Source: a virus
DNA length: 55,658 nt
Strand: one strand, 5' to 3'
IMG/VR virus record: IMGVR_UViG_3300009304_000001
Location: 1-55,658 of that record
Of the stretch, positions 1,257-48,511 are shown one piece after another. Each line of letters begins with the position of its first letter. The stretch's first letter is position 1. The position numbers were made by a program, and so were the translations under genes. The notes beneath the pieces are model-generated. The model was not told the DNA's origin and did not search any database. It saw nothing but the letters and a program-made list of their open reading frames with translations.

Positions 1257-1274
1257 AGCTGAGGGGGAATTAAA

Positions 1275-1652
1275 GTGGAATCAATCATTAAATTAGGTGA
1301 AGAAGAAGTGCGCTTAAAGGCGAACGCGATTACTGCTATGCATTATAAAAATCAATTCAAGTCTGATATTTTAAAAGATACTTTATCTGCCATCGGTGGT
1401 ATAGAAGCGGTTATGCAGTTAAAAGATCTTGAAGATGCGACTGATTATCAAAAGTTGCAAACGATGATAAATAACATCGATACCGTATTGATTTATCAAC
1501 TTGTTTGGAGTTTTGCGAAAACCTCTGATAGAAATTTCATACCGTTTTATAAATGGATTGAAAATGCGTATCTGCCACCAGTTACAGAATTATTGTTAGA
1601 AGAAAACTTTGTGGAATTACTGATTGGGAACGTATATAGAAAAAAGCGGTAA
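1275..1652 (+). CDS. Tail assembly chaperone G (unshifted product)
   Basis: A 125-residue protein just after the major tail protein, the place of the lambda G analogue that helps load tail-tube subunits on the tape measure. GTG start behind a GAGGGGGAATTAAA Shine-Dalgarno. The last codons contain the slippery heptamer A AAA AAG (1640-1646) followed by CGG TAA, so the ordinary product ends in YRKKR. A -1 slip extends the protein (see the GT entry). The copy at 44462-44839 is close in sequence. Confidence 0.8.
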   Translation: MESIIKLGEEEVRLKANAITAMHYKNQFKSDILKDTLSAIGGIEAVMQLKDLEDATDYQKLQTMINNIDTVLIYQLVWSFAKTSDRNFIPFYKWIENAYLPPVTELLLEENFVELLIGNVYRKKR

Positions 1653-1867
1653 AGGCTACTGTTGAGAGCGCATCTGATGATGATGACGTGCTCTCAACAG
1701 AGTCTTTTTTTATGACTTGTAAACTTGTAAATCTAACACTTGATGATATGGAGTATATGACAATTGGCGAGTGCTTAGATTATGCCGAAAACTATATTTC
1801 ATTGAAGAGTGGAAAAACAGAATATAAAGCGCGTTCCGCTAAACAGGAAGACTTTAACACCTTTTAA
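1275..1867 (+). CDS. Tail assembly chaperone GT, -1 frameshift product
   Basis: If the ribosome slips back one base on A AAA AAG at 1640-1646, translation continues in an open frame to the TAA at 1865-1867. This adds about 73 residues, beginning AVKATVESASDDDD and ending KQEDFNTF. A G/GT pair made by -1 slippage is a conserved arrangement in siphophages; the GT form bridges tube subunits and tape measure. The extension has no Shine-Dalgarno of its own, and the same arrangement is kept in prophage B. Confidence 0.75.
1640..1702 (+). promoter_or_regulatory. Programmed -1 frameshift site with stem-loop
   Basis: The slippery heptamer AAAAAAG is followed after a short spacer by a long hairpin: CTGTTGAGAGC pairs with GCTCTCAACAG around a loop rich in GAT repeats. 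A run of seven T follows, so the same hairpin could also attenuate transcription. In prophage B the inner stem reads GCACATC/GATGTGC instead, with pairing kept on both sides, which supports an RNA structure. Confidence 0.75.
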
Positions 1868-1883
1868 ATTGGAGGCGAGGTGA

Positions 1884-4800
1884 TTGTCCAAAAGAATAAA
1901 AGGAATAACAATTGAGTTAGATGGCGATACGAAAGGTCTCGACAAAGCCCTAAAGGATGTAAATAAAGAATCAAGGGATCTGCAAAAAGAATTACGTGAC
2001 GTAGATAAACTACTAAAGTTTAATCCTAAAAATGTTGAATTATTAGCGCAAAAGAAAAAGCTATTAGCTGATCAAGTTGAAAATACAAAAAAGAAGCTAG
2101 ACCAATTAAAGCAGTCGCAAGAACAAGTCACGCAAGCTTTTAAAAATGGAGAAATAAGCGAAGAACAATATCGAGCATTTCAACGTGAAATCGCTGAAAC
2201 AGAATCTAAGTTAAAGCACTATGAAGGTCAGTTAAAAAGCGTAGATACTACCCAAAAGTCATTTGGCGAAAAGATGGCCGCATCAGGAAAATCTGTAAAA
2301 GAATTTGGTCAGAAAATGACGTCGGTCGGAAAAGAACTTTCGATGAAAGTCACTGCACCATTGGCGGCTATCGGTGGAGTAGCGGCTAAAATCGGCATGG
2401 ACTTTAAGGCGGGATTATCAGAAGTACAGGCGATTAGCGGTGCAACAGCGGAAGAGATTGGACAACTAGAAACGAAGTCAAGAGATTTAGGGTCAACCAC
2501 TAAATTTAGTGCCAAGCAAGTTACTGAAGGATTCAAGTATATGGCTTTAGCGGGTTGGGATGTCCAGCAATCTATGGATGGTATTGATGGCGTGCTCAAT
2601 CTTGCAGCTGCATCTGGTGAGGATTTGGCTGTAGTATCCGACATTTTAACTGATGCTATATCTGCATTTGGAGACGAGGCAGGAGATGCCGGGAGATATG
2701 CGGACGTTATGGCTGCAGCTGCATCAAATGCTAACACTGATGTCGCCGGACTCGGTCAAGCGTTTAAGATGGTTGGACCCGTTGCTGGTGCATTAGGTTA
2801 TAGCTTGGAAGATACATCAGTCGCGTTAGGTTTAATGGCGAATGCTGGTGTCAAAGGATCAAGCGCAGGTACCGCTTTACGTAGTGCGTTAACTAACTTA
2901 GTTAAACCGACAGCGGCAATGGAAAAAGAAATGAAGAACTTGGGTATAAACATCAAGGACTCTAACGGGGAAATGAAACCATTAGACGTGTTGCTTGGTG
3001 ATTTAAGAGGTTCTTTTGGAAAGTTGACTGATGATCAAAAAGCTTCATCAGCAGCAACGATATTCGGTAAGGAAGCAATGGCCGGTATGCTCGCAGTTAT
3101 TAATACTGGTGATGCTGATTTCAATAAGTTGTCAAAAGCTATTGAAAATAGTGATGGGGTCGCACAAGAGATGGCTGACACCATGCAGAATAATTTACAA
3201 GGAAAATTAACTAACCTTAAATCAGCATTAGAAGAGTTGGCCATTAAAATATTTGATGCGTTAGAACCTGCATTAGCTTGGCTTGTTGGTGCTTTCCAAT
3301 CCCTTGTGAATTGGCTTAACGGGTTGGATAAATCTACACAAACGGCAGTGGTGGCAATAGCCGCATTAGCTGCTGGAATAGGACCTCTCGCCGTGGTGCT
3401 AGGTACGATACTTACTATGGTTGGGGGATTTATGACTGTACTACCAACACTAATACCTCTGATCGTCGGATTGGCCGGACCCATAGCTATTGTTGTTGGA
3501 AGTTTGGTTGCGCTCGGAGTTGCGTTTGCGTTATTTAAAACAGATGCAGACGAAGCCTATAAATCGCAATTAGATTTAGCAGAGGGGAATTTAGAGTTAT
3601 CCGAATCGTACAAAGGTGTGCTGGAAGAACAATTGGAACAAATCGACAAAACGTCTGATTTAATCGAGAAAACCCAAGAGCAAATGGAGGCAACTGACAA
3701 ACTAGTAAATTCTTTCGAAGGTTTAATTGAGAAGTCCAAACTAACAACAGATGAATTCGGTGAATTTTTAACAGCGCAATCTGAATTGGAGAATACCAAA
3801 TCACCACAACGAATTGCAGAACTTGAAGAACGAATGGAAGGTCTTCGTAAAAAGTCAGGTTTATCTAAGGAGGAATTTGACAAGCTCCTGGTATCAAATA
3901 ACTTGCTGACAGAACAATTTCCAGAAGCTGGAACAGTCGTTGACGATTATGGAAATAAAATAGCGGATACAACTGGTAAATTACGTGAGATGACAAATGC
4001 GGAGCTTGAACGTATGGAACTCCAAGTTTACAATCAAATGGTTGAAGATTTACAGTCCGTTAATGGCGAGATAGATAACTATCAAAACTTACTTGGCGAG
4101 GTTGTTACGCTCGAAGATAGTATTCTTGCTAAGAAAAAAGAAATAGCTGGAATACAAGAGCAGGTTACCGCAAACGAACAAACCCAAAACGAAAACAACA
4201 CAAAGCTTTTAGAACTAAAAGAACTACAAAAAGATGCAGGCTTGAAAGAATGGTACAACTTAGAAAATCAAAAAGATCAGTTGAAGCTACAAAATTTTGA
4301 ATTAGATGGTAAGAATAAAAAGAACAGCAAAAACTTAGAAACCCTAGAATCTGCACTTTCCACAGAAGAGAAGGATCTAAAGGTGAAGCAGGAAAGTCGA
4401 GACATGATTGGCCAACAAATAGATAAAAATATGCAGAACCATGATGCATATACAAATATCCTTGGAACCCAATTCGATATAAATATCGAAAAAGGGAAAG
4501 AGAACCAGTCGATTGATAAAGCTATTGCTAAACGCAAAGAAGAAATCAAGCAATTACAAGATAAAATCGATAAAGAAGGTGACTCCAACGGAAAACTTAA
4601 AGAGGCGATTGGACACCTTACAACAGAAAATAGTCAACTAGAAGAAGCTAAAGGTAAGCTAGGAAATATTAACGGTACGCTCGACACACAAGTATCAAAA
4701 TATGACACAGCAAATAACAAGCTAGCAAAAGTAAATGCGAAGTTTACAGAAGCTGGTGGATTGACTGATGGCAACATCAAGAAAGCGGATGTTTGGAACG

Positions 4801-5393
4801 GGAAGTTAGATAAGAGTCACACAAAAGATGTCACTGTTAAAACCAACAAAGATCCCGACGAAGAAAATAAAAAGTGGAGTAGCCCAATAACTAAGATTAT
4901 TAGTTTCTTCACAAAAGGAAAGAAGCCGGATGCTTATGCGGAAGGAACAAATTATCACGGTGGCGGTCCCGCATTCGTTGGAGAAGAGGGTCCGGAGTTA
5001 GTGAAAATGGGTGGTAAAACACAGCTGATGAACTTTGGTTTGTATGATTTACCCGTAGGTGCAAAAGTATTTACTCATGAAGAATCTATGGGTATGCTAC
5101 GAAACGGATTAGTTGATGGCATTAGTCGTGGAGTTAACTTACAACGTAACTCGTCACAAGTTACAAAGGAAGATAGTAGAGGAAGTGCATCAGTATCAAA
5201 CCAAAATTCAAATATTGTTGGTGTTTTAACAGAACAAAATCGATTGCTGACCGAATTGGTATTATCTAACCGCAATATTGAAGCTAAGCCAGTTTTGTCA
5301 GAAGGAGACATCAGACGGTCCTACGATAAAATGGATGCTAAACAATCTAGTAAACATGAAGTATTCACGGGAAGACCAGGAGGGGCTACTTAA
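1884..5393 (+). CDS. Tape measure protein, TP901 family
   Basis: An 1169-residue protein that sets tail length and is thought to reach the host membrane on infection. TTG start behind GGAGGCGAGGTG. The N-terminal ~140 residues are Lys/Glu/Gln-rich coiled coil. The TP901-type core follows (SEVQAISGATAEEIGQLE, FMALAGWDV-type segments, many Ala/Gly stretches). Around residues 465-560 lie strong hydrophobic segments (VVAIAALAAGIGPLAVVLG and following). A second coiled coil spans roughly 570-1000, and the C-terminal EEGPELV region closes it. It matches the prophage B tape measure until about nt 5150, then diverges. Confidence 0.9.
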   Translation: MSKRIKGITIELDGDTKGLDKALKDVNKESRDLQKELRDVDKLLKFNPKNVELLAQKKKLLADQVENTKKKLDQLKQSQEQVTQAFKNGEISEEQYRAFQREIAETESKLKHYEGQLKSVDTTQKSFGEKMAASGKSVKEFGQKMTSVGKELSMKVTAPLAAIGGVAAKIGMDFKAGLSEVQAISGATAEEIGQLETKSRDLGSTTKFSAKQVTEGFKYMALAGWDVQQSMDGIDGVLNLAAASGEDLAVVSDILTDAISAFGDEAGDAGRYADVMAAAASNANTDVAGLGQAFKMVGPVAGALGYSLEDTSVALGLMANAGVKGSSAGTALRSALTNLVKPTAAMEKEMKNLGINIKDSNGEMKPLDVLLGDLRGSFGKLTDDQKASSAATIFGKEAMAGMLAVINTGDADFNKLSKAIENSDGVAQEMADTMQNNLQGKLTNLKSALEELAIKIFDALEPALAWLVGAFQSLVNWLNGLDKSTQTAVVAIAALAAGIGPLAVVLGTILTMVGGFMTVLPTLIPLIVGLAGPIAIVVGSLVALGVAFALFKTDADEAYKSQLDLAEGNLELSESYKGVLEEQLEQIDKTSDLIEKTQEQMEATDKLVNSFEGLIEKSKLTTDEFGEFLTAQSELENTKSPQRIAELEERMEGLRKKSGLSKEEFDKLLVSNNLLTEQFPEAGTVVDDYGNKIADTTGKLREMTNAELERMELQVYNQMVEDLQSVNGEIDNYQNLLGEVVTLEDSILAKKKEIAGIQEQVTANEQTQNENNTKLLELKELQKDAGLKEWYNLENQKDQLKLQNFELDGKNKKNSKNLETLESALSTEEKDLKVKQESRDMIGQQIDKNMQNHDAYTNILGTQFDINIEKGKENQSIDKAIAKRKEEIKQLQDKIDKEGDSNGKLKEAIGHLTTENSQLEEAKGKLGNINGTLDTQVSKYDTANNKLAKVNAKFTEAGGLTDGNIKKADVWNGKLDKSHTKDVTVKTNKDPDEENKKWSSPITKIISFFTKGKKPDAYAEGTNYHGGGPAFVGEEGPELVKMGGKTQLMNFGLYDLPVGAKVFTHEESMGMLRNGLVDGISRGVNLQRNSSQVTKEDSRGSASVSNQNSNIVGVLTEQNRLLTELVLSNRNIEAKPVLSEGDIRRSYDKMDAKQSSKHEVFTGRPGGAT

Positions 5394-6277
5394 TGAATGA
5401 TTACTTTAAAATATACGACATTAACTTTAATCTAGTTCCTCTGCCTGTAGATGATTTAGGATACGGTCTGGTTGGACTGGACCTATTTGTATCTTCAATC
5501 GGTCAAGAAATCACCGAACATAGTATACCAGGACTACCCGGAAACATTATTACAGGCGTTCGGGATGATGAACGGGATATAAGTATTAGCGCCATGATAC
5601 AAGCTATGAACCCCACAGACTATCGGTTGAAACGTGACCGGGTATTTTCTTTTTTTAGATCCTTGGGCTCTTTTTACGTTACGGAATCGCAACAAGGAAA
5701 TAAATTAATGAAAGTTAGGGTTATCGATAAATACAGAGCCGACCGACCATTGGGTTTTGGTACAGTCGCGGAAGTTGATATCCCATTAAAAATAGACGGT
5801 CAGCCTTACTGGGTGAGCCGTTTTAAAACATTGGATTTACACAACAACAATGGCATACCCGCAAACGGAAATTGGTCTTTCGGCATGGGAATCGAAGTAT
5901 CCCCCGATGAATTAATTTACGAATATGAAAATGTAAGTGAGTTCAATATTTTTAATGCAGGTATTCTTTTAAAGACAATACAAGAAAAGGACAATTGCCA
6001 AATAAAGATTAAAATAAAACAAAGCGTTACTAGTTTTATGCTATACGATGCCACAGGCTCTAAGTGGGAATATAATGCGGTAAAAGAAAGTGGCTGGGCT
6101 TTAAAGACTGGCGACGTAATAATATTTAATGGCCACGATATCCGGTTAAATAAAACTACGATAATGGAGAGAACAAATCGTTACTATCCTCTCATAAAAG
6201 AAGGCAGCAATAATTTTGAAATCGAGGGACTAACTCAATTTAAAGTAATTTTTGATTTCAGATTTAAGTATTACTAA
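5393..6277 (+). CDS. Distal tail protein (Dit)
   Basis: A 294-residue protein starting in the TAATG overlap with the tape-measure stop, behind AGGAGGGG. Position and size fit Dit, the hexameric hub that joins the tail tube to the tip and receptor-binding module. The N-terminal half has the usual strand-rich pattern (EHSIPGLPGNIITGVRDDER, then a DKYRADRPLGF segment). It is unrelated by eye to the prophage B Dit at 48508-49329, so the two phages change modules here. Confidence 0.75.
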   Translation: MNDYFKIYDINFNLVPLPVDDLGYGLVGLDLFVSSIGQEITEHSIPGLPGNIITGVRDDERDISISAMIQAMNPTDYRLKRDRVFSFFRSLGSFYVTESQQGNKLMKVRVIDKYRADRPLGFGTVAEVDIPLKIDGQPYWVSRFKTLDLHNNNGIPANGNWSFGMGIEVSPDELIYEYENVSEFNIFNAGILLKTIQEKDNCQIKIKIKQSVTSFMLYDATGSKWEYNAVKESGWALKTGDVIIFNGHDIRLNKTTIMERTNRYYPLIKEGSNNFEIEGLTQFKVIFDFRFKYY

Positions 6278-6290
6278 AGGGAGCGATGAT

Positions 6291-8858
6291 GTGAAGAGGC
6301 ATTTAATAGAAGGACCTGTAAATGATGAGATGTTGAACAAGCAAAATAGTAATTTCAAGGTGTTGTTTGATGAAGGGATTAGATCAGGATTAGATTCTAA
6401 AGATGCAAGAGAGAAAGCATTGCAGGCCCTTGTAGAATCAACGCTTGCAAAAGAAAACGCATTAGTAGCCAAGGGATTGGTTCAACAAATTATAGACGGG
6501 TCAATTGACACTAGCGCATTGAACACGAATATAGAACAAAGAATGAACGATTTAGAGGGGGAATATGCGCCGAAGTTAACGGAAGTTACTCAACGGTTGG
6601 AGGAAACTGCGAAAAAACTATTTTATTTTGAAGCACCAAAACAGCCAAGTTTTAACGCATTGGATGAAGGGCATATTTGGGACGGTATAAACAGAACGCA
6701 AGACGATTTCAGAAAAGAAATGATTGATCCTTTAGTTGCGACAGCGCCAGATTATGTTACGAAAACATTATTGGGTAAGGATACAAGCGGAACTTATGAT
6801 ATACACGAATATATTTTCGAGCCAGAAGAATATGAGCAGACTATCCTTCTAACAAGTGGGGTGCATGGCAGGGAAACCGTCCCAGTTTATTCTATATATC
6901 GTCTTATGCACTACCTAATCAATGAACCAGAAGTACACCCAGACATTCAGTATCTTAGAGAAAAGGTAAGGATATGTATTATTCCTGTTGTGAATCCGTG
7001 GGGTGGTTCTAATATAGTACCAGGAACAATATACAAAGTTTATGGAAACGTAAACGGTTCTAGTATAACAAGAAATGTACCGTTTGAGTGGGAACTTGCA
7101 GGAACGGCGAGGGGTACAGTTCCTTTTTCGGAAAATGAAGCTAAAATCATGTGGGATTGGATAACTAAATACAAGAATGTAGCTAGTTTTTATATGGATT
7201 TTCACACGAATTGGAGTTATTACGGCAGTCTGCCAGAGAAAGATGTGTGGGTTAACTTAACATGGCAAGACGAGTATGCAGCACCGGTCATTAAGCAAGT
7301 TAATTCCTATCTAAATAGCCGAGTTACAGAAAAGTACGGTAGAAGTTCCGTAGATGATACAGGAGTTACTACGGGAGTGGGTATGCGGTATTATGCCCAA
7401 TTTGGATGCAACATACCCGCCGCAACGATGGAGTATTGCGAAACCCGATTCGGGGGCAGGTTTGGCGGTTCGGTTGATATAACCGAACACCTAACACAAG
7501 CAGTTAACTTTATTTCATCGTTGTCCAAAGCGAATTTGTTAGAGTTAAGGAAGGAACGGGACAGTAATTTCAAGGCATTAAAATACATTAGTACTGAGAT
7601 CATGAACTTCCATTCCTTGAATGAGGATATAAACGCAGCTGATTTTAGCGATGAAGTACATGAAAAATACGATAGGTATGTAAGCACTCCTCCTAAAGGT
7701 ATTGAGGTCACGGAAAGTGTTTTGAGCAAAGATACATCCAACACATATGATATAAAATCATATACGTTCATGCCAGAAAGATATGAGAAGACACTGTTTT
7801 TGTATGCAGGACTATATAGTAGGTATGGTTTTAAAGAGGTCTTTGTTTTACAAAATTTGATTAAATACATTTACACATCAAAAGATTACGTCGCAGAACA
7901 GTTGAGGAATTATTATAGAATTATTGTGATTCCCGTAGTGGACGTAAGTAGGTTCAACAAGAGTATATCCAGCTATGATAATAACGGGATTCCAGATAGG
8001 GATGTTATTGCTTCGGATATAAGGATATTGACGAACGACTTTGATGCATTCACATTAAGCGAATCACGTGCGATAAAGAAGATAGTTGAAGCCAACGTGA
8101 TAGATACAAGTATTGATATAGGTTCACATTTTGGTTTAGCTGCTGCTTATGCGATAGATGAGTTAAATAACATTTATACCACTTTGTATAATGCTTCTAA
8201 GTATGCAGAAAAAATATTCAACCCTAGTGTTACAATTGGGGAATTCGGACTGATTTCAGACTTCACAGGTTACACCTCAAATATTCATTTGAAATACATG
8301 AGCAAGCACGTTATAGAGCCCGTATCTTTCCGAGTAGGAAGAGTACCTTTTGATAGGGGTACGCCGATATATAACGAAAACTTGGTTGAAATGCGAAGGT
8401 TTGCAGAGATTTTAATTAACTCATTATACCAGTACATGACCACTAATTTCAAAAAGACTTACAGTATCGAACCCGTAAACTTGGCAAAGCCTTTTTATAA
8501 CGATGATTGGGACTTGCATGCAAACGCCATTCTTTTAGAAGACAAGGAAACCCTAAAATTCACGCCTACTGCGTCATACCAAGAAAACGATCTGATCATC
8601 GACGTGGAAGAAGGCATGGAGTATTATGCTAGTTTTGACAAGATCATCCCTAACTCACCACAAGTTGCGTTGTTTGCTTTCAGGGTAACAGCGGATGGGA
8701 TTGTGGGTTCAAGCGTTGGGAATACAACAGGTAAAGAAATGATGTTTACTATACCAATCGGATACCCAAAAATAAAGTTGTCAGTTAGAAGTGTAGCTGC
8801 ACCATACGGAGAATCGTTCATTATAAAGGACATTAAATTATATAAAGTTAATAAGTAA
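6291..8858 (+). CDS. Tail protein with tandem M14 zinc-carboxypeptidase domains
   Basis: I place the start at GTG 6291 behind AAAGGGAG, giving 855 residues. After a coiled N-terminal part, residues ~160-400 form an M14 metallopeptidase domain: HGRE (His192, Glu195), DFHTN (His305) and TMEYCE (Glu381) fit the zinc ligands and general base. Residues ~450-720 repeat the fold (KDTSNTYDIKSYTF mirrors KDTSGTYDIHEYIF), but the HxxE site reads LYSRYGFKE, so this half looks inactive. A strand-rich C-terminal domain could bind sugar. The gene lies between Dit and Tal, where receptor-binding or wall-degrading tip proteins sit. A role in trimming peptidoglycan peptides is inferred. Confidence 0.75.
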   Translation: MKRHLIEGPVNDEMLNKQNSNFKVLFDEGIRSGLDSKDAREKALQALVESTLAKENALVAKGLVQQIIDGSIDTSALNTNIEQRMNDLEGEYAPKLTEVTQRLEETAKKLFYFEAPKQPSFNALDEGHIWDGINRTQDDFRKEMIDPLVATAPDYVTKTLLGKDTSGTYDIHEYIFEPEEYEQTILLTSGVHGRETVPVYSIYRLMHYLINEPEVHPDIQYLREKVRICIIPVVNPWGGSNIVPGTIYKVYGNVNGSSITRNVPFEWELAGTARGTVPFSENEAKIMWDWITKYKNVASFYMDFHTNWSYYGSLPEKDVWVNLTWQDEYAAPVIKQVNSYLNSRVTEKYGRSSVDDTGVTTGVGMRYYAQFGCNIPAATMEYCETRFGGRFGGSVDITEHLTQAVNFISSLSKANLLELRKERDSNFKALKYISTEIMNFHSLNEDINAADFSDEVHEKYDRYVSTPPKGIEVTESVLSKDTSNTYDIKSYTFMPERYEKTLFLYAGLYSRYGFKEVFVLQNLIKYIYTSKDYVAEQLRNYYRIIVIPVVDVSRFNKSISSYDNNGIPDRDVIASDIRILTNDFDAFTLSESRAIKKIVEANVIDTSIDIGSHFGLAAAYAIDELNNIYTTLYNASKYAEKIFNPSVTIGEFGLISDFTGYTSNIHLKYMSKHVIEPVSFRVGRVPFDRGTPIYNENLVEMRRFAEILINSLYQYMTTNFKKTYSIEPVNLAKPFYNDDWDLHANAILLEDKETLKFTPTASYQENDLIIDVEEGMEYYASFDKIIPNSPQVALFAFRVTADGIVGSSVGNTTGKEMMFTIPIGYPKIKLSVRSVAAPYGESFIIKDIKLYKVNK

Positions 8859-16583: not shown

Positions 16584-17027
16584 ATGCAAATGGAGTTTAT
16601 TGGGTATCATGGTACTGCAGAGTCAGTTCACAGGCTTTTAGATGGAGATAAATTAAGAAGAAAAAAATTTCAATATGGTGCATTGCCTGGCGATTTGGGG
16701 ACAGGAACATACTTCTTCAAAGATGACCCGGCGTTAGCTTATGCCTTCGCCAGTAAGGTTAGTTCTTCTTCGATTAGTGTGATCGAGGGAAATATCGCGG
16801 TAAAGGTTGAAGAAGTACTTGATTTAAATGATCCTGAATCATTGCATTTTTTTAACGAATTTAAATGGAAAATGCTTGACCAAGTTAAGAAAACCTTTGG
16901 AAATCTCAGGGGGCGTAGGGATTGTATTGATGGAATAGTTATTAATCAAATGGTAAGATTAGCAAAGAGTAAAGATAATCAGACACTGAAATTGGTTATC
17001 AGAGACACATATACACAGACAGATTAA
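16584..17027 (+). pseudogene. Truncated ADP-ribosyltransferase-like toxin (duplication fragment)
   Basis: Identical to the first 146 residues of the protein at 18050-18613, then one different residue and a stop created at the duplication join (CAG ACA GAT TAA). It keeps YHGT and GTGTYFF but loses the C-terminal 40 residues with GTELCVIDESIV, where the third conserved strand and acidic residue of this fold would be. It still has promoter region and start, so a truncated, probably inactive protein could be made. No antitoxin or chaperone gene follows this copy. Confidence 0.8.
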
Positions 17028-18049: not shown

Positions 18050-18613
18050 ATGCAAATGGAGTTTATTGGGTATCATGGTACTGCAGAGTCAGTTCACAGG
18101 CTTTTAGATGGAGATAAATTAAGAAGAAAAAAATTTCAATATGGTGCATTGCCTGGCGATTTGGGGACAGGAACATACTTCTTCAAAGATGACCCGGCGT
18201 TAGCTTATGCCTTCGCCAGTAAGGTTAGTTCTTCTTCGATTAGTGTGATCGAGGGAAATATCGCGGTAAAGGTTGAAGAAGTACTTGATTTAAATGATCC
18301 TGAATCATTGCATTTTTTTAACGAATTTAAATGGAAAATGCTTGACCAAGTTAAGAAAACCTTTGGAAATCTCAGGGGGCGTAGGGATTGTATTGATGGA
18401 ATAGTTATTAATCAAATGGTAAGATTAGCAAAGAGTAAAGATAATCAGACACTGAAATTGGTTATCAGAGACACATATACACAGACAGAGGATTATTCAT
18501 ACGAAAAGAACGGAAGGGAAAGATACTTTATTTCGAACTTTCCTAACGGAACTGAATTATGTGTGATTGACGAATCGATTGTGCAGAGAGGTGTGAGTTA
18601 TAATGGGGTTTAA
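18050..18613 (+). CDS. ADP-ribosyltransferase-like toxin of a TAC operon
   Basis: 187 residues. Features of the ART/PARP fold: YHGT with His9 near the N terminus, then LGTGTYFFKDDPALAYAFA with Tyr43, and a C-terminal GTELCVIDESIV strand with Glu169, giving an H-Y-E-like set. Such enzymes move ADP-ribose from NAD+ onto protein, DNA or RNA. The stop overlaps the next start by 11 bases, and a SecB-like gene follows, so I read it as toxin of a toxin-antitoxin-chaperone system; E. coli CmdT is also an ART with this partner set. The target is unknown. A weak AGGAA precedes ATG 18050; ATG 18056 is an alternative. Confidence 0.7.
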   Translation: MQMEFIGYHGTAESVHRLLDGDKLRRKKFQYGALPGDLGTGTYFFKDDPALAYAFASKVSSSSISVIEGNIAVKVEEVLDLNDPESLHFFNEFKWKMLDQVKKTFGNLRGRRDCIDGIVINQMVRLAKSKDNQTLKLVIRDTYTQTEDYSYEKNGRERYFISNFPNGTELCVIDESIVQRGVSYNGV

Positions 18614-33567: not shown

Positions 33568-33999
33568 GTGACGATCAATTCAAAGCCGGAGAAACTACGC
33601 AGAGGTACTGTTCAACACATAGAAGCAGAACTATATGATTATCACGATACGCTTAAAAGAATCAAAGAACGCCGTGACGAGTTACTACATGGATCACCTT
33701 CGGAGGAATTGGTAGGTGGCAGAAGTAATATACCATCTGACCCAACAGGTAGTGTCGTGTCCCAGCTAATGGCTGATAAGCAACTACAAGAATTAGAGCG
33801 TATAGCAGCAGCTGTTGAACATGTTTATAATATGTGCGATGAACAGCGTAGAAAGTTAATCCGCCTCAAGTATTGGACAAGGCCACAAACTAGATCATGG
33901 GAAGGCATAGCACAAGAGATTCCAACGAGTCGAGCAACTTCATTCCGATGGCGTGATGAAATCATTCAAGCGATTGGGGAAGTGTTGGGGTGGCGGTAA
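33568..33999 (+). CDS. RinA-family late transcription activator
   Basis: 143 residues, GTG behind AAGGGGTGAAAGC. N-terminal coiled coil with EAELYDYHDTLKRIKERRDE, then an HTH-type C-terminal half (EQRRKLIRLKYWTRP, SWEGIAQEIPTSRATSFRWR). RinA-like proteins activate the packaging and structural operon in staphylococcal and related phages; here it lies upstream of terminase, with the candidate ncRNA between them. Confidence 0.8.
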   Translation: MTINSKPEKLRRGTVQHIEAELYDYHDTLKRIKERRDELLHGSPSEELVGGRSNIPSDPTGSVVSQLMADKQLQELERIAAAVEHVYNMCDEQRRKLIRLKYWTRPQTRSWEGIAQEIPTSRATSFRWRDEIIQAIGEVLGWR

Positions 34000-34400: not shown

Positions 34401-34502
34401 ATGTTCAAGTGCTTCTTTAAAGGTCACAATTGGTTCATAACAAGTAAGTGGTTAAGCGGTAATAGTTACATGTGTACCCGCTGCGGTAAAGAAAAGATTT
34501 GA
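34401..34502 (+). CDS. DUF1660-like mini protein
   Basis: 33 residues, ATG behind GGGAGGTAGAAAAT. KCFFKGHNW ... CTRCGKEKI is the DUF1660 pattern (CxxxGHxW plus CxxCGK). Unknown function. Confidence 0.6.
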   Translation: MFKCFFKGHNWFITSKWLSGNSYMCTRCGKEKI

Positions 34503-34549
34503 TCGAATATCCAGTTCTAATATAATAAGACTATTATGAGACTTTCGAC

Positions 34550-35215
34550 GTGCCTAAATGGGTTATGGTGATAACGTGGTAGTAAATCAACAGAGCGTTA
34601 CCACAAGAGGCGGCGTAGATACGTTGCAAAGGTTGCGGTACATACCGATTGACAACCGACAAAGCAAGGATGCACATAAAAAGCGGCGTAGGTTAGCCGG
34701 CATCAAAAATACAAAGTAAGTTTATGACTAGAAGACGGTGGCCCGTTGTACAGGCGTGGGAGTTTGTGCAACGAACTGTCTTGTTCACAAGGCATACGCA
34801 GTCGCATCGGTTAATCACAGTTAAGATTGACTACATTACTATGGTAGCGGCGCGATAGTCTCGATACGAAGGAGCCGATTACAACGGGTGTGGAAGCCCA
34901 GCGTGAAAGACCTCTTAATCTAAACGACATCACTGATCTGATGCGGTAAAAATCGGAAAGTAGTAATGCTATTACGGGTAGGGCCTGTGGATACGCGGAT
35001 AATACTTTCCGGTTATTGTTTATGTAAGAAGTCAGCCTGTAAAGTCTAGGAGTAATCGAGGTTATGGGCTGAGTTGTTATATAAAATACAGGTACATAAA
35101 GGTGGTGGGTCATTCTTGAAGTCTCGTGTAAACGTCAATAGGCGATATGCCGGAGGGGAAAGGTGATCCATACATCTACGAACTATCGTTTAAATAGTGA
35201 GCCGAATCCTGTATC
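34550..35215 (+). ncRNA. Candidate large structured phage RNA (ROOL/GOLLD-like)
   Basis: About 730 bases between the DUF1660-like and lipoprotein genes carry no believable gene; frames are broken, with one spurious minus-strand ORF. Perfect stems are seen: GTGGTA/TACCAC (34576/34599), GGTTGCGGTA with TACCG and CAACC (34631-34657), GACGGT plus CGTTGTAC with GTGCAACG and ACTGTC (34734-34780), CGGAAAGTA/TACTTTCCG (34954/35003) enclosing GTAAT/ATTAC, CAGCC/GGCTG (35033/35067), ATACAGG/CCTGTAT (35086/35208). The density of pairing and the place upstream of terminase fit large phage RNAs. The exact family and ends are undetermined. Confidence 0.6.
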
Positions 35216-35236
35216 ATTGAATCAAATGGTATAGGA

Positions 35237-35749
35237 GTGATTTTTATTAAACGGTTAATGATTATTTTATTAGGTGTTATGTTGTTGTCGGCATGCGGGG
35301 ATAACGAATACGAAAAAGAATTAAAGGAAGCAGAAAAAGGATTAGAGGAATCTAAAGCGGAGTCAGAAAGAATCTCAGAACAAATAGGAGTAACAGAGGA
35401 TGATCCCGTGGATGAATCGATTAGCATATCAGCGGAAGAAGTTGCTGAACTTATAGCACATGAAGCTCTAGGCGAAGGTGATACCATAACAGATGTAATT
35501 ATTTACGATGGAGAAATCAAAGCGGTTATAGAAATATCAGATGATGCTATCATTAGCGATAAAAGTCTTCTTGCTGAATCAATATACTCTCGTGCAGGGG
35601 ACGCTCTTCTTGAACATGAAGGTTGGGATGTGCTGACGGTAGAGTTTGTGGATGTCGGTGAAGTATCTATGCAGCGCAACGAAAAGGAATCAAACGAATA
35701 TGGAATGGATTATTTCCCGCTTGAAAAGATAATAGGTCAACTGGAATAA
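35237..35749 (+). CDS. Prophage lipoprotein
   Basis: 170 residues if GTG 35237 is used; AGGAGTG lies nearer an ATT at 35246, so the start may differ. Signal peptide with basic start and LLGVMLLSAC lipobox (Cys21), so it is anchored in the outer leaflet of the membrane. Then an acidic coiled coil (KELKEAEKGLEESKAESER) and an alpha/beta domain. Own terminator. Prophage lipoproteins often serve superinfection exclusion, which is only a suggestion here. Confidence 0.65.
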   Translation: MIFIKRLMIILLGVMLLSACGDNEYEKELKEAEKGLEESKAESERISEQIGVTEDDPVDESISISAEEVAELIAHEALGEGDTITDVIIYDGEIKAVIEISDDAIISDKSLLAESIYSRAGDALLEHEGWDVLTVEFVDVGEVSMQRNEKESNEYGMDYFPLEKIIGQLE

Positions 35750-36611: not shown

Positions 36612-36926
36612 ATGTTTTATAAAACAAAACGATGGACCAGCAAACGATTAGTTATCCTACGGCGTGATGAGTACCTATGCAGAGAGTGCAAGCGGTTCGG
36701 CAAGACGACGCAAGCCAACACAGTTCATCATGTGCTACCGCTTGAACAGCACCCAGAGTACAGGTTGACCAACGCTAACCTACTGAGCCTGTGCGGTACG
36801 TGTCACAACAAGATGCACGATAGATTGACCAATGAATTAACAGATACAGGTACGGCATGGGTGGAGCGTGTGGGATTACAGAAGGTATCCCCCCCTCCTA
36901 AAAACGATTTTTTTATAAAAACATAG
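36612..36926 (+). CDS. HNH endonuclease (packaging-associated)
   Basis: 104 residues. CRECKRFGK, VHHVLPLEQHPE, then LLSLCGTCHNKMH give the HNH/Zn site. HNH proteins encoded next to terminase in HK97-like phages are needed for specific terminase cleavage. ATG is one base after the previous stop. Confidence 0.85.
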   Translation: MFYKTKRWTSKRLVILRRDEYLCRECKRFGKTTQANTVHHVLPLEQHPEYRLTNANLLSLCGTCHNKMHDRLTNELTDTGTAWVERVGLQKVSPPPKNDFFIKT

Positions 36927-36927
36927 A

Positions 36928-36976
36928 CCGGAGAGTGGAGACTCTTCCAATAGTGCGGGTCTCCGGAAAACTTTTT
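36928..36976 (+). terminator. Stem-loop between HNH and terminase
   Basis: CCGGAGA and TCTCCGG enclose an inner AGAGT/ACTCT stem, followed by AAAACTTTTTT. It could end or attenuate transcription or expose the terS ribosome site. Confidence 0.5.
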
Positions 36977-36991
36977 TGAGGTGGTGAAAAC

Positions 36992-37342
36992 ATGACAAGA
37001 CGAATAACGTCGCAAGAAACTATTAAGCGAAGAACGATTAGAGACATGAAAGATTTAGGGGTTCATAAGCCACAGTACAATAGACTTATTGATATTTATG
37101 CAGGCTTGATTCATCAGTATTTAATTGCCGTTGCCGACTTCGAAGATAGTGATTTTGCATACGAAACCGAAACGGCTGCAGGCAATCCAAAGAAGTCGGG
37201 AATCGTCAGCACGATGGAAAACTTGCGAAAAGACATACTCCAGTATTCTGATCGTTTATGTTTGAACCCGAAGAGTTTTGGAGACCGAAAAAGTGAAGAC
37301 GGGAATACATCCTCTCTTGCGGATATATTGAGGAATTCTTGA
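36992..37342 (+). CDS. terS: Terminase small subunit, P27 family
   Basis: 116 residues with ATG behind GAGGTGGTGAAAAC. P27-type: basic N terminus, YNRLIDIYAGLIHQYLIAV, then GIVSTMENLRKDILQYSDRL. It recognises phage DNA for packaging. Four-base overlap (TTGA) with the large subunit. Confidence 0.85.
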   Translation: MTRRITSQETIKRRTIRDMKDLGVHKPQYNRLIDIYAGLIHQYLIAVADFEDSDFAYETETAAGNPKKSGIVSTMENLRKDILQYSDRLCLNPKSFGDRKSEDGNTSSLADILRNS

Positions 37343-39093
37343 CTAAAGCTTTTAAAAACTATGACGCAGTAATGGAGTATGCAAATAGCGTTGTGGAAAA
37401 ACGTAAGTTAGCAAACAGGGAAACTATTCAGATGTGCCAAAGATTTTTGGACGACTTGAAGAATCCCATTTATGAATTCAAACCAAAAGATGCGGAGTTC
37501 GTTATTCGCATTATCGAAAAAACATTTGTTCATGATAAAGGAGAACGGCTTGATGGAACGCCATTGCTAGGACAACCTTTCATATTAGAACCTTGGCAGA
37601 AATTTATTATCTATAATTTGCTAGGTTTTTTTCATAAAGATACAATCATGCGGCGCTTCAAAGAGGCGTTTATTTTTTTGCCAAGAAAGAACGGTAAAAC
37701 AAGATTTGTCGCTGCTCTTTCGTGGGCCTTAGCATTGTTGGAAAGGCGTTCCGGTTCAACTATATATATTGTTGGTGCAGCACTTAGACAAGCCAGGCAA
37801 TCATTTGAGTTTATTAATTTTAATTTGAAGAAGATGGGCGAAGCGGATAATTTTAGAGTTAGGGACAACAACCAAGAATCTTCCATTGTGGGCGACTTGG
37901 GCGATGGTTCATTACACATTGAAGCACTAGCAGCTAACCCCGATAAACAAGATAGTTTGAACTGTAACATTGCCATAGCCGATGAATTGCACTCATATAA
38001 ACGTGCCACTCAGTACAACGTAATTAAAGAAGCCATGAAAGCTTATACAAATAAGTTAATGATTGGCATAACGACAGCTGGAGATAATCAAAACAGCTTT
38101 TGTTATCATCGTTTGGTTTATTGCCAAAAGATATTAGACCGAACAGTAACGGATGAACAGTACTTTGTGTTTATTGCAAAGGCGGACCAAGATCAAGAGG
38201 GAAATGTAGATTATACTTGTGCGAAAGAACACGAAAAGGCGAATCCTAACTATGGAATAACGATAAGACCGGATGACATTATGAACGATGCACTACAGGC
38301 ACAAAATGATCCGCAACAACGAAAAGACTTCCTTGCTAAATCATTAGATATTTATACAAGCGCAATGAACGCCTACTTTAATATAGACGAGTTCAGAATG
38401 TCTGATATAGCTGTTGAAAATGAATTAGGTTTAGCAGGGTTAAAGCTGAATGAAAAATTAAAGAAATTAGCTAGATTGAAAATTGATTGGTATGGCGGTG
38501 CGGATTTATCAAAGCGGCATGATTTGACTGCCACTGCTTTATACGGCACTTATAAAGACATTGATATAGTTATCAGTCATGCATTTTTCCCAATCGTTGC
38601 AGCTACTGAAAAAGCAGATGATGACAACATTCCATTATTCGGTTGGAAGGATGACGGGTTTTTAACTATGGCTAACAATCCCGTAATTAGTTATCAAGAC
38701 GTTGTGAAATGGTTTATTAATATGCGGAAAGTCGGATTTAAAATCCATAGTACTGGCTTTGATAAGAAGTTTGGTCGTGAGTTCATCCTGGAAATGAAGA
38801 AGAACAACTTTAAGATTGAGGATGCGCCGCAATACTTCCACTTGAAATCAGAAGGTTTCAGACGTATTGAAACTAAGGCGAAAGAAAAGCGGTTTTACTA
38901 TCTAGGTTCAGAAGCATTTGAGTACTGTACGCAGAACGTAAGAGCGATTGAGCAGACAGACGATGCAATCAAGTATGAAAAAATATTAGATACGCAAAGA
39001 ATCGATGTATTTGATGCATCGGTTTTTTCTGCTATGCAAATGTTGAAAACGTTGGAAAAATCGAAGACTGCTAGGCAATGGTTGGATAGTTAG
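37339..39093 (+). CDS. terL: Terminase large subunit
   Basis: 584 residues, TTG start. ATPase Walker A RKNGKT (from ~residue 116) after FIFL, Walker B NIAIADELHS, and a C-terminal nuclease region (LKIDWYGGADLSKRHDLTAT). It drives DNA translocation and cuts concatemers. Full length. Confidence 0.93.
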   Translation: MTKAFKNYDAVMEYANSVVEKRKLANRETIQMCQRFLDDLKNPIYEFKPKDAEFVIRIIEKTFVHDKGERLDGTPLLGQPFILEPWQKFIIYNLLGFFHKDTIMRRFKEAFIFLPRKNGKTRFVAALSWALALLERRSGSTIYIVGAALRQARQSFEFINFNLKKMGEADNFRVRDNNQESSIVGDLGDGSLHIEALAANPDKQDSLNCNIAIADELHSYKRATQYNVIKEAMKAYTNKLMIGITTAGDNQNSFCYHRLVYCQKILDRTVTDEQYFVFIAKADQDQEGNVDYTCAKEHEKANPNYGITIRPDDIMNDALQAQNDPQQRKDFLAKSLDIYTSAMNAYFNIDEFRMSDIAVENELGLAGLKLNEKLKKLARLKIDWYGGADLSKRHDLTATALYGTYKDIDIVISHAFFPIVAATEKADDDNIPLFGWKDDGFLTMANNPVISYQDVVKWFINMRKVGFKIHSTGFDKKFGREFILEMKKNNFKIEDAPQYFHLKSEGFRRIETKAKEKRFYYLGSEAFEYCTQNVRAIEQTDDAIKYEKILDTQRIDVFDASVFSAMQMLKTLEKSKTARQWLDS

Positions 39094-43824: not shown

Positions 43825-44442
43825 ATGAATGAAAATAAAAATAAGTTATTGAAATTAGATTTACAACACTTCGGAAACAAAGTTACTTTTGGTTTACAAG
43901 ATGTACATTATGCAACGTTTGAAGAGGTAGAAGGTGTGGTTACTTTTGACGCTCCAATACCAATTCCCGGTGGTGTGGAGTTAACAACGGATCCGCGTGG
44001 GGATATGGTCGAATTTTATGCAGACAACATGATCTACTACGCTGCATCAAACAACCAAGGATATGACGGTACACTGACTATCGCTAACATTCCTGACCAG
44101 TATTTGGTTGATGCACTAGGCGAAGAGTTAGATGAAGAAGACGGAGTGTTAAACGAAATTGCGAACGCTACAGGAAAACCATTTGCACTATTATTTCAGT
44201 TCGAAGGTGATGTAAAAGCTGTGCGACACGTGATGTATAACTGTACTGCGAACCGTCCGACGATTGCTTCTACCACTAAAACAAGTGCGGCTGAACCAAA
44301 CACGAACGCACTTACGTTTGTATCGAGTCCGATTAAATTAGGTGGGAAACTAATGGTTAAGACAAAAACGACAGCGGCGACAAAAGAAGAAGTTTACGAA
44401 GCCTGGTATGCAGCAGTTTATGAAAAGGTTCCAGGACTTTAA
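43825..44442 (+). CDS. Major tail protein, phi13 family
   Basis: 205 residues, counterpart of 639-1256. The N-terminal 150 residues are almost unchanged; substitutions gather near ASTTKTSAAEP and the C terminus. Confidence 0.85.
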   Translation: MNENKNKLLKLDLQHFGNKVTFGLQDVHYATFEEVEGVVTFDAPIPIPGGVELTTDPRGDMVEFYADNMIYYAASNNQGYDGTLTIANIPDQYLVDALGEELDEEDGVLNEIANATGKPFALLFQFEGDVKAVRHVMYNCTANRPTIASTTKTSAAEPNTNALTFVSSPIKLGGKLMVKTKTTAATKEEVYEAWYAAVYEKVPGL

Positions 44443-44461
44443 AAGTTGAGGGGGAATTAAA

Positions 44462-44839
44462 GTGGAATCAATCATTAAACTAGGCGATGAAGAAGTGCGC
44501 TTGAAGGCGAACGCAATTACCGCTATGCATTATAAAAACCAATTTAAGTCTGATATTTTAAAAGATACTTTGGAAGCTATCGGTGGTATCGAAGCGATTA
44601 TGCAATTGAGAGATCTTGAAGAAGCGACTGATTATCAAAAGTTACAAACGATGATAAACACCATAGATACCGTATTGATTTATCAACTTGTTTGGAGTTT
44701 CGCGAAAACCTGTGATAGAAATTTCGTTCCGTTTTATCAATGGATTGAAAATGCAGATTTACCACCAGTAACAGAATTATTGTTAGAAGAAAATTTTGTA
44801 GAATTACTGATCGGGAACGTATATAGAAAAAAGCGATAA
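44462..44839 (+). CDS. Tail assembly chaperone G
   Basis: 125 residues, GTG behind GAGGGGGAATTAAA. Ends in a slippery A AAA AAG at 44827-44833 followed by CGA TAA. Confidence 0.8.
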   Translation: MESIIKLGDEEVRLKANAITAMHYKNQFKSDILKDTLEAIGGIEAIMQLRDLEEATDYQKLQTMINTIDTVLIYQLVWSFAKTCDRNFVPFYQWIENADLPPVTELLLEENFVELLIGNVYRKKR

Positions 44840-45054
44840 AGGCTACTGTTGAGGGCACATCTGATGATGAAGATGTGCTTACAACAGAGTCTTTTTTTAT
44901 GACTTGTAAACTTGTAAATCTCACGCTTGGAGATATGGAGTTTATGACAATTGGCGAGTGCTTAGATTACGCCGATAACTACATATCTTTGAAAAATGGA
45001 AAAACAGAAGATAAAGCACGTACTGCTAAACAGGAAGACTTTAACACCTTTTAA
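44462..45054 (+). CDS. Tail assembly chaperone GT (-1 frameshift product)
   Basis: After slipping at 44827-44833 the -1 frame is open to TAA at 45052-45054, adding about 73 residues (start AIKATVEGTSDDED, end KQEDFNTF). Both prophages keep the same extension length, which argues for selection on the shifted frame. Confidence 0.75.
44827..44889 (+). promoter_or_regulatory. Programmed -1 frameshift site, prophage B
   Basis: Heptamer AAAAAAG, then a stem CTGTTG/CAACAG with inner GCACATC/GATGTGC, then TTTTTTT. Paired substitutions relative to prophage A keep the stem. Confidence 0.75.
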
Positions 45055-45070
45055 ATTGGAGGCGAGGTGA

Positions 45071-48000
45071 TTGTCCAAAAGAATAAAAGGAATAACAATT
45101 GAATTAGATGGTGATACGAAAGGTCTTGACAAGGCGTTAAAGGATGTAAATAAAGAGTCAAGGGATCTACAGAAAGAACTTCGCGATGTGGACAAGTTAC
45201 TTAAATTTAACCCTAAAAACGTTGAGTTGCTTGCCCAAAAGAAGAAGTTACTAGCTGATCAAGTTGAAAACACTAAAAAGAAATTAGATCAATTAAAGCA
45301 ATCACAAGAACAAGTGACACAAGCCTTTAAAAATGGAGAAATAAGTGAAGAACAGTATCGAGCATTTCAACGTGAAATTGCTGAAACCGAATCTAAGTTA
45401 AAACATTATGAAGGTCAGTTGAAAAGCGTTGATTCTACACAAAAGTCATTTGGCGATAAGATGGCCGCATCGGGGAAATCTGTAAAAGAGTTTGGTCAAG
45501 GTATGACCTCGGTTGGTAAAGAATTATCAATGAAGGTTACCGCACCACTGGTAGCGATTGCTGGTGTAGCGAGTAAAATAGGCATGGACTTTAAGGCGGG
45601 AATGTCAGAAGTTCAAGCTATATCAGGTGCTACTGGAGAAGAGTTAGCACAGTTAGAAACAAAAGCTCGGGAGTTAGGTTCATCCACAAAGTTTAGCGCA
45701 AAAGAAGTTTCTGAGGGATTCAAGTATATGGCTTTAGCGGGTTGGGATGTCAAACAATCTATGGATGGTATTGATGGCGTGCTCAATCTTGCTGCCGCAT
45801 CCGGTGAGGATTTGGCTTTAGTATCCGACATTTTAACTGATGCTATATCTGCATTTGGAGATGAAGCAAGCGACGCGGGAAGGTATGCCGATGTTATGGC
45901 TGCTGCTGCATCAAATGCTAACACTGATGTCGCCGGACTTGGAGAAGCCTTTAAAATGGTCGCTCCTGTTGCTGGGGCACTTGGTTATAGCCTGGAAGAT
46001 ACATCAGTCGCGTTAGGTTTAATGGCGAACGCTGGTGTCAAAGGATCAAGCGCGGGTACCGCTTTACGTAGCTCATTAACCAACATGGTTAAACCAACAA
46101 AGGCTATGAATAAAGAAATGAAAAAGCTAGGTATCGAAATCAAAGACAGTAACGGCGAGATGAAGCCGCTAGACGTGTTACTTGGAGATTTGCGTTCATC
46201 ATTCAGCACATTAACAGCTGATCAAAAAGCTTCTTCTGCTGCTACTATTTTCGGTAAGGAAGCAATGGCGGGGATGCTTGCAGTTATTAACGCAAGTGAT
46301 GCCGACTTCAATAAGCTGTCAAATGCTATTGAAAATAGTGACGGGGTCGCACAAGAGATGGCTGACACCATGCAGAATAACTTACAAGGTAAATTAACTA
46401 ACCTTAAATCAGCATTAGAAGAGTTGGCCATTAAAATATTTGATGCGTTAGAACCTGCATTGTCTTGGCTTGTTGGTGCTTTCCAAACTCTCGTGAATTG
46501 GCTTAACGGGTTGGATAAGTCTACACAAACGGCAGTGGTGGCAATAGCGGCATTAGCTGCTGGAATAGGCCCCCTTGCCGTGGTGCTAGGTACGATACTT
46601 ACTATGGTTGGAGGATTTATGACTGTGCTACCCACGTTAATACCATTAATCGTAGGCTTGGCCGGTCCTATCGCTATTGTTGTTGGCGGTTTGGTTGCAC
46701 TAGGTGTAGCTTATGCGTTACTGAAAACAGATGCGGATAAAGCGTATAAATCGCAACAAAAAATGGCTGAACAGAATTTGGAATTAGCGGAATCCCATAC
46801 AGAAGTACTGGAAGAGCAATTGGAACAATCCGACGCAACAGCCGATTTAATCGCAAAAACTCAAGAACAGATGGAAGCTACAGACGAATTAGTTACGTCC
46901 TTTGAAAAATTAATCGAAAAATCAAAGTTGACAACAGATGAATTCGGTGAGTTTTTAACGTTGCAGTCAGAGTTAGAAAACACAAAATCACCACAGCGGA
47001 TTGCTGAACTCGAAGAACGTATGGAAGGATTGCGTAAGAAGTCCGGGCTGTCAAAAGAAGAGTTTAATAAACTTCTTGAATCGAATAGCTTGCTGATAGA
47101 ACAATTTCCAGAGGCCGGGTCAGTCGTTGACGATTATGGAAATAAGATTGCCGATACGACAGGCAAGTTACGTGATATGACACAAGCGGAACTTGAGCGT
47201 ATGGAGTTACAAATATACAACCAAATGATTGAAGATTTACAAGCGGTAAACGGTGAAATAGACAATTATCAAAACCTACTAGGCGAAGTTGTTGAGTTGG
47301 AAGATAGTGTCCTAAGTAAGAAGAAGGAAATTGCAGGAATACAGGAACAAGTTACTGCGAATGAGCAGGTACAAAATGAAAATAACGCCAAACTTTTAGA
47401 GTTAAAAGAACTACAGAAAGATGCAAGTTTAAAAGAATGGTACAACTTAGAAAATCAAAAAGACCAGTTGAAATTACAAAACTTCGAATTAGATGGCAAG
47501 AACACAAAGCATGGTAAAAACTTAGAGGTCTTGGACGCAACGCTTTCCACAGAAGAAAAGACGCTAGTTGAAAAACAAAAGCAACGAGATATGATAGGCG
47601 AATTGATTGATAAAAACAGCACGAATTTTGATAGTTACTCAAAAATCCTTGGTACTCAATTCGATATCAACATTGAAAAAGGAAAAGAGAATGAGTCGAT
47701 TGATAAAGCAATCGCCAAACGCAATGAAGAAATTAAACAGCTAGAAACCAAAATCAGCAAAGAAGGCGACTCTAACGGAAAAATAAAAGAGGCAATTGGT
47801 CACTTGAAAACCGAAAACGGTCAACTTGAAGATGCAAAGGGTAAGTTGGGTGATATTAACGGTTCGCTCGATACGCAAGTTGGAAAATACGACATAGCAA
47901 ATAATAAGTTAGCTAAAGTTAACGGTAAATTCCAAGAATCAGGCGGATTGACTGATACTAATATCAAAAAAGCTGACATCTGGAATGGGAAACTAGACAA

Positions 48001-48511
48001 AAACCACAAAAAAGATGTCACTGTCAAAACCAACAAAGATCCCGACGAAGAAAACAAAAAGTGGAGTAGCCCAATAACTAAAATTATTAGTTTCTTTACA
48101 AAGGGTAAAAAACCAGACGCTTACGCAGAAGGGACAAACTATCATGGTGGTGGTTCGGCCTTTATTGGTGAAGAAGGTCCAGAGCTAGTCAAAATAGGAA
48201 GCAAAATGCAATTGATGGACTACGGTCTGTACGATTTGCCGGTTGGAACTAAAGTTTATACGCATGAAGAGTCTATGGGAATGTTACGCAACGGGTTAGT
48301 TGACGGCATTAGTCGTGGAGTGAATTTGCAACGTAATTCTACAAAAAACTCAAGTGTGGATGATATGAATAATCAACAATCGCAGGTAGTCAATCGACCG
48401 GCTCCGATTAATGTAGCCACAATGATTGTGCGAGAAGAAGCGGACATCAAGAAGGTTGCCCGTGAGTTGCACAGATTACAAAAAGGAAATCAAAGGGTGG
48501 TGCTCGGATGA
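45071..48511 (+). CDS. Tape measure protein, TP901 family
   Basis: 1146 residues, TTG behind GGAGGCGAGGTG. Same domain order as 1884-5393: coiled coil, TP901 core, transmembrane stretch around 465-560, second coiled coil. The last ~60 residues differ (INVATMIVREEADIKKVARE), starting after GISRGVNLQRNS. Confidence 0.9.
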   Translation: MSKRIKGITIELDGDTKGLDKALKDVNKESRDLQKELRDVDKLLKFNPKNVELLAQKKKLLADQVENTKKKLDQLKQSQEQVTQAFKNGEISEEQYRAFQREIAETESKLKHYEGQLKSVDSTQKSFGDKMAASGKSVKEFGQGMTSVGKELSMKVTAPLVAIAGVASKIGMDFKAGMSEVQAISGATGEELAQLETKARELGSSTKFSAKEVSEGFKYMALAGWDVKQSMDGIDGVLNLAAASGEDLALVSDILTDAISAFGDEASDAGRYADVMAAAASNANTDVAGLGEAFKMVAPVAGALGYSLEDTSVALGLMANAGVKGSSAGTALRSSLTNMVKPTKAMNKEMKKLGIEIKDSNGEMKPLDVLLGDLRSSFSTLTADQKASSAATIFGKEAMAGMLAVINASDADFNKLSNAIENSDGVAQEMADTMQNNLQGKLTNLKSALEELAIKIFDALEPALSWLVGAFQTLVNWLNGLDKSTQTAVVAIAALAAGIGPLAVVLGTILTMVGGFMTVLPTLIPLIVGLAGPIAIVVGGLVALGVAYALLKTDADKAYKSQQKMAEQNLELAESHTEVLEEQLEQSDATADLIAKTQEQMEATDELVTSFEKLIEKSKLTTDEFGEFLTLQSELENTKSPQRIAELEERMEGLRKKSGLSKEEFNKLLESNSLLIEQFPEAGSVVDDYGNKIADTTGKLRDMTQAELERMELQIYNQMIEDLQAVNGEIDNYQNLLGEVVELEDSVLSKKKEIAGIQEQVTANEQVQNENNAKLLELKELQKDASLKEWYNLENQKDQLKLQNFELDGKNTKHGKNLEVLDATLSTEEKTLVEKQKQRDMIGELIDKNSTNFDSYSKILGTQFDINIEKGKENESIDKAIAKRNEEIKQLETKISKEGDSNGKIKEAIGHLKTENGQLEDAKGKLGDINGSLDTQVGKYDIANNKLAKVNGKFQESGGLTDTNIKKADIWNGKLDKNHKKDVTVKTNKDPDEENKKWSSPITKIISFFTKGKKPDAYAEGTNYHGGGSAFIGEEGPELVKIGSKMQLMDYGLYDLPVGTKVYTHEESMGMLRNGLVDGISRGVNLQRNSTKNSSVDDMNNQQSQVVNRPAPINVATMIVREEADIKKVARELHRLQKGNQRVVLG

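Follow-up and report, generated by a model that had tools for sequence, protein, structure and literature searches.

The window that we analysed, a stretch of 55,658 nucleotides of viral DNA, contains a RinA-type regulator gene followed by two small ORFs, a stretch at positions 34503 to 35236, a small lipoprotein-like gene and the packaging genes (Table 1). These ~730 bases had been described as gene-free in an earlier, sequence-only reading, and we confirmed that neither strand carries a convincing gene between the ORFs at 34401-34502 and 35237-35749. The stretch holds short ORFs only, the largest of which, an antisense ORF of 100 amino acids, has no significant relative among the loci that we fetched. 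A search for an unrecognized coding sequence returned a single ORF with relatives, a CxxC fragment of 21 residues at 34617-34692 that is also present in locus L148, and a coding gene in the stretch was rejected. A tRNA search of 34503-35236 found none, and a tRNA or tmRNA identity was rejected as well. Nucleotide searches of annotated phages and plasmids gave no direct relatives. The late-promoter-like sequence in Table 1 was recognized by aligning it by eye with its counterparts, and the likeness is weak. Another candidate promoter, with the consensus TTGATC-16-TATAAT and located at 34499-34526, is of a kind that occurs at chance level. The 5' arm of the terminator-like hairpin holds CCTGTAT, which is able to pair instead with ATACAGG at 35086-35092. 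In the lipoprotein-like ORF (region 35237-35260), AGGAG is the best ribosome site, and the codon to which it points is an ATT near 35248 and not the listed GTG.

Table 1. Features in and around the gene-free stretch (positions in the window)
Feature	Position	Strand	Evidence
RinA-type late transcription regulator gene	33568..33999	+	phrog_36 transcriptional regulator, E 2.5e-24
Late-promoter-like sequence TTTCGACG-N18-TGATAA	34543..34574	+	resembles TTTTGRC-N18-TGATATTGT 5' of the element in L081, L082 and L086
Variable leader region with a stable fold and hardly any relatives	34588..35085	+	z -3.3 for 34533-35080
Strongest hairpin, 18-nt arms 83% complementary	34948..35017	+	local z -6.4 for 34950-35099
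Conserved RNA element (113 nt)	35094..35206	+	R1 match 93.1 bits, E 3.8e-15; R2 81.2 bits
16-codon leader ORF, TTG start, ending at TGA inside the core	35116..35166	+	ORF ending at the same TGA in 27/37 elements
16S-tail-complementary purine-rich core GGAGGGGAAAGGUGAUCC	35152..35169	+	-24.3 kcal/mol with 16S tail vs shuffled mean -9.1
H-type pseudoknot: S1 ACG/CGU, L1 A, S2 ACUAU/AUAGU, L3 UUAA	35178..35198	+	covariation
Terminator-like hairpin 3' of the element, with an overlap into the 5' part of the leader of the next gene	35207..35236	+	chance frequency (2 found, 1.8 expected)
Small lipoprotein-like gene directly 3' of the stretch	35237..35749	+	weak PHROG lipoprotein match
HNH-TerS-TerL packaging genes	36612..39093	+	Pfam HNH, Terminase_4, TerL_ATPase, TerL_nuclease

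The stretch folds beyond chance, and does so on the plus strand only (z about -5). Its plus strand folds to -227.1 kcal/mol (z -5.5), and separate shuffles gave z -4.8 for the plus strand and -0.3 for the minus strand; ten coding stretches of 734 nt from the same phage, taken as controls, ranged from -1.9 to +2.1. The signal is uneven, as sliding windows place it mainly at 34950-35099 (z -6.4) and 35100-35249 (z -3.4) and find it weak at 34500-34900. The sequence-only reading had stressed many perfect stems. The helices that it quoted exist (CCCGTTGTA/TACAACGGG, 9 bp; CATTACTA/TAGTAATG and TTTATGTA/TACATAAA, 8 bp each), but their abundance does not stand out, with 29 exact 7-mer inverted pairs against about 25 expected over about 900 bases. 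Because perfect stems of 7 to 9 bp occur at about the chance number, the list of stems is not in itself evidence for structure; the total fold is. A proposed long-range closure, ATACAGG/CCTGTAT, is indeed present at 35086-35092 and 35208-35214, flanking the conserved element, but relatives have not kept it. The idea that it is a conserved basal stem was rejected, as flanks paired over 4.6 bp with their own partners and over 4.2 bp when crossed.

The same reading had suggested that the stretch is a large phage RNA such as ROOL or GOLLD, or else an undescribed class. What it has in common with ROOL and GOLLD is that it is structured, free of genes and part of a phage late region. Unlike them, it has a conserved unit of only ~110 nt that is cis-acting in position, and no covariance model matched: a search of the window against 4227 Rfam models, at the gathering score and even at E<=5, assigned no family to the stretch or to the element. 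The ROOL or GOLLD identity therefore fell away. The idea of an undescribed structured RNA class holds for the 3' 113 nt, which have homologs, strong covariation and no Rfam family, but this conserved unit covers only about one-sixth of the stretch. It came to light through RinA homologs in viral contigs, which led to loci L081, L082/L083 and L086, each with an element of ~100 nt similar to window positions 35094-35206. A covariance model (R1) built from the window, L081, L082 and L086 recovered, over 89 loci, only its four source sequences and L083, whose sequence is the same as that of L082. Over Psychrobacillus family genomes, R1 found the element in 17 of 261 and a second model (R2) in 25 of 261, and R2 also found it in one genome beyond these (G371). 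Ten further viral-contig loci carry it, some of them copies of the same prophages. A first pattern search of genome contigs gave 12 chance matches and a single real one (L106). Among 397 other Bacillota genomes none had the element, in a search whose fast filters lose some weak matches. The existence of the family is near certain, and it adds to the known structured RNAs one that is missing from Rfam. One prophage (L143) carries three copies within 2.5 kb, at 5260-5357, 5452-5559 and 7696-7798; the middle copy has lost the 16S-complementary core described below and kept the knot-like end.

Comparative alignment for compensatory changes, the check that had been suggested for the stretch, revealed a covarying two-stem pseudoknot at the 3' end of the element. 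Its consensus reads [AG]UCU, S1 (3 bp), A or UU, S2 (4-6 bp), S1', UUAA/UUAU/UUAC and S2'. The two stems interleave and carry the compensatory changes expected of an H-type pseudoknot. Across the four sequences aligned first, every one of the 52 cells is paired and six pairs differ on both sides, a result that no shuffle matches. Among 32 sequences S1 is paired in 99% of cells, with C-G, G-C, U-A and A-U pairs all represented, and the covariation score is 0.616 compared to 0.248 in shuffled sequences and at most 0.19 in slid registers. Of 38 unique elements, 32 have a perfect knot of this architecture, compared to 7% of shuffled tails, with 14 S1 and 15 S2 pairings represented. Examples are ACG A ACUAU CGU UUAA AUAGU in the window, CGC A AUCAU GCG UUAA AUGAU in L086 and GCG UU GGUUGC U CGC UUAU GUAACC in L158. 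This covariation is direct evidence for a function at the RNA level.

The ~500 nt upstream of the element behave differently and are best seen as a variable, phage-specific structured leader region. A blast search with 34588-35085 gave no matches, and the only relatives of this region are two short collinear pieces in L148. A DNA search of the family genomes returned only matches of 23-28 nt, which we judged to be chance, and a 20-base motif common to the upstream part and L148 was absent from viral contigs. At the same place other phages have a degenerate tRNA-like sequence (L081/L106), a different structured stretch (L082) or small genes. The tRNA-like sequence, at L081:10176-10270 and identical in L106, resembles tRNA-Leu, lies between a late terminator and the element, and is not called by ARAGORN. 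One large ornate noncoding RNA of ~650 nt, of an undescribed class and with 35094-35206 as merely its 3' domain, would account for the strand-specific stability over the whole stretch, and the closure helix and a second knot-like motif at 34932-34957 could be read in its favour. We consider it improbable: the upstream part has almost no homologs, the closure shows no conservation, and the 3' element of other phages stands alone, lacking the upstream part, as a leader element of ~100 nt. The second motif is at chance level and was rejected, as shuffles give up to 7 matches of the same score class. One of the two L148 pieces, a further point against a single large RNA, reads as part of a CxxC peptide, window 34617-34692 against L148 6424-6362 (IRCKGCGTYRLT.. 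against IRCKDCGIDRLT..), without an obvious start codon; this is possibly a gene remnant or a case of an unusual start.

Just 5' of the knot, nearly every member of the family has a purine-rich core, AAAGG(N0-4)GGUGAUCC, that is the complement of the 16S rRNA 3' tail. The duplex has a mean energy of -21.1 kcal/mol, compared to -7.0 for shuffled cores, and 32 of 33 elements beat nearly all of their own shuffles in 16S pairing; for the ribosome sites of the phage's own genes the median is -11.6 and the best value -16.7 kcal/mol. The tail sequence that we used, GGATCACCTCCTTTCT, occurs ten times in the one family genome in which it was confirmed. Changes in the GTGATCC part of the core are nearly all C>T or A>G, and pairing with the fixed 16S partner is kept in 25 of 27 cells. 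Since the search pattern had preselected positions 1-6 of GTGATCC, the unbiased figure is that for position 7, where pairing is kept in 16 of 17. The complementarity to the 16S rRNA 3' end is that of a STAB-SD, and start codons within 16 nt after the core are depleted (6 of 37 elements, with 14.7 expected). Translation could start at the GTG of the core itself, though only a short spacer lies between it and AAAGG. ORFs that end at the core TGA are often leaders of 12 codons with a TTG or GTG start, and in some phages a small gene of 50-77 codons. The knot starts about 10-11 nt after the TGA of the leader. As the frame or the stop is lost in some elements, the conserved layer is RNA rather than peptide.

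STAB-SD and 5' polypurine stabilizers of Gram-positive late or abundant mRNAs, known from cry3A of Bacillus thuringiensis and from phage SP82, share with the element a Shine-Dalgarno-like core that is complementary to the 16S rRNA 3' end and is not positioned for initiation (PMC4113751, PMC3997798, PMC7509114). The cry3A STAB-SD is described as able to pair with 16S rRNA without directing initiation, and the bound 30S subunit as blocking RNase J1 (PMC4113751, PMC3997798). In SP82, mutations of the ribosome site shorten the mRNA half-life (PMC7509114). The element differs in its longer pairing, which covers the whole tail, in its covarying pseudoknot, leader ORF and operon-internal position, and in that stabilization is only predicted for it. 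Compact viral RNA knots can stop RNase J1 in vitro (PMC5760640), and viral exonuclease-resistant RNAs, as compact knots able to stop 5'-3' exonucleases including this one, are in this respect alike, the element's own resistance being a prediction. Because the element combines STAB-SD-like and knot features, the best-supported model is start-less docking of a 30S subunit at a site that a pseudoknot locks. We hold it tentatively and from sequence, at a little under an even chance: the element would be a cis-acting, STAB-SD-like 30S docking site that, with its pseudoknot, protects or boosts late mRNA. Downstream of a phage-specific structured leader of ~500 nt, the leader ORF, or in some phages a small gene, would end on a core that pairs with the whole 16S rRNA 3' tail. 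A 30S subunit would dock there, and the knot would keep the mRNA out of the ribosome's channel. The parked subunit and the knot together could then form a barrier to the 5'-3' exonuclease RNase J1 and stabilize what lies downstream (the terminase message, or that of scaffold and capsid) once a long polycistronic transcript has been processed, and the element may perhaps also load ribosomes for the downstream late message. A bolder claim, which we regard as doubtful, is that of a new class of phage RNA in which 30S capture by near-complete pairing with the 16S tail and a pseudoknot lock create a ribosome-dependent exonuclease barrier at the head of late transcription units. If true, it would be a bacterial functional counterpart of viral exonuclease-resistant RNAs.

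Several points argue against the docking model, the possible GTG start in the core among them. The element is often operon internal, so that a role as a 5' barrier would need upstream cleavage, and the conservation of the leader ORF also fits translational coupling. This is the strongest rival, if an unlikely one: ribosomes of the leader or small gene would stop at the core TGA, be retained by 16S pairing and the knot, and restart ~45-130 nt downstream, which would set the stoichiometry of late proteins. In its favour, 27 of 37 elements have an ORF that ends exactly at the core TGA, and these ORFs include small genes of 50-77 codons, unrelated to each other, in L128, L164 and L165, but in the other 10 the frame or the stop is lost while core and knot remain. 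Moreover, the next gene, at times separated from the element by GP20-b, is served by a more distant ribosome site of its own. Coupling could also act together with a 30S docking site.

The element recurs in two contexts, either preceding HNH-TerS-TerL, which is the arrangement in the window, or lying between the gene of a MuF-like protein and scaffold-capsid genes (assigned by Pfam Phage_Mu_F, Phage_scaffold and Phage_cap_E). The late genes of phages are carried on very long messages, although a phage needs much more capsid and scaffold than terminase or portal. With a conserved, covarying element of unusually strong 16S pairing and scarce start codons placed exactly at such borders, differential stability or ribosome loading can be tested directly in Gram-positive phages. 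In two prophages (L130/L151 and L178), GP20-b (RF03003) lies immediately 3' of the element. It too is a candidate cis-regulatory RNA, directly 5' of phage scaffold (Gp20) genes, but it has a separate sequence and model and matches neither the element nor the window. As it adjoins the element in these prophages, the element stands at a site already suspected of cis-regulation, yet is not GP20-b. A series of knot-like sequences follows the element 5' of scaffold genes at L151:5263-5328 and L178:5359-5423 and in L144, L146, L155 and L172 (e.g., CGTC..GACG-TTAA, CGTGG ACGATAC CCACG..CGT and, in L172, CGCGG ACAATA CCGCG..TGT). The Rfam threshold for GP20-b is reached by only two of this series, so that the motif looks broader than its model.

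The position of a conserved knot beside a ribosome-docking site, just 5' of structural genes, resembles the pseudoknot operators of ribosomal proteins. S15 traps the 30S subunit on its own mRNA at a pseudoknot, and the rpsO/S15 entrapment operators likewise have theirs at the docking site. The element might then be an operator: its knot would be bound by a protein of the phage (scaffold, terminase or regulator) or by a ribosomal protein of the host, which would regulate the genes downstream. We find this quite unlikely, as the stem sequences vary freely while pairing is kept, so that a binder must read shape and loops, and the downstream genes differ between the two contexts. Neither with these operators nor with the viral exonuclease-resistant RNAs does the element share a sequence relation, a known protein partner or a demonstrated ring fold. 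Several elements lie 5-25 nt 3' of an intrinsic terminator in the late leader, as might a put-like or EAR-like processive antitermination RNA that lets RNA polymerase pass late-operon terminators. This we regard as very improbable: put- and EAR-type RNAs lie 5' of the terminators that they override, many elements lie 3' of the late-leader terminators surveyed, and the 16S complementarity would be left unexplained. In L082, L148, L152 and L176 a hairpin, GTCACATCC..GGGTGTGGCTTTTTATTA, recurs between successive small genes of the late leader, 5' of the element, as if each small gene had its own terminator.

A few further observations concern the window and its relatives. Many terminase relatives in viral contigs (L001-L003, L008, L011, L040 and L044) start ~380-415 bases 5' of TerL, which suggests a cos site between HNH and TerS, near 36.9 kb. 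A cos site inside 34503-35236 was rejected, as the contigs of relatives tend to begin ~400 bases before TerL. Positions 639-5393 and 43825-48511 of the window contain two diverged copies of a tail module, which runs from the major tail protein to the tape measure; tandem prophages or a joined assembly would look like this. At ~15.5-18.6 kb there is a near-identical tandem repeat of ~1.47 kb (amidase C terminus and an intergenic stretch; 16584-17027 and 18050-18613), which is possibly an assembly artefact.
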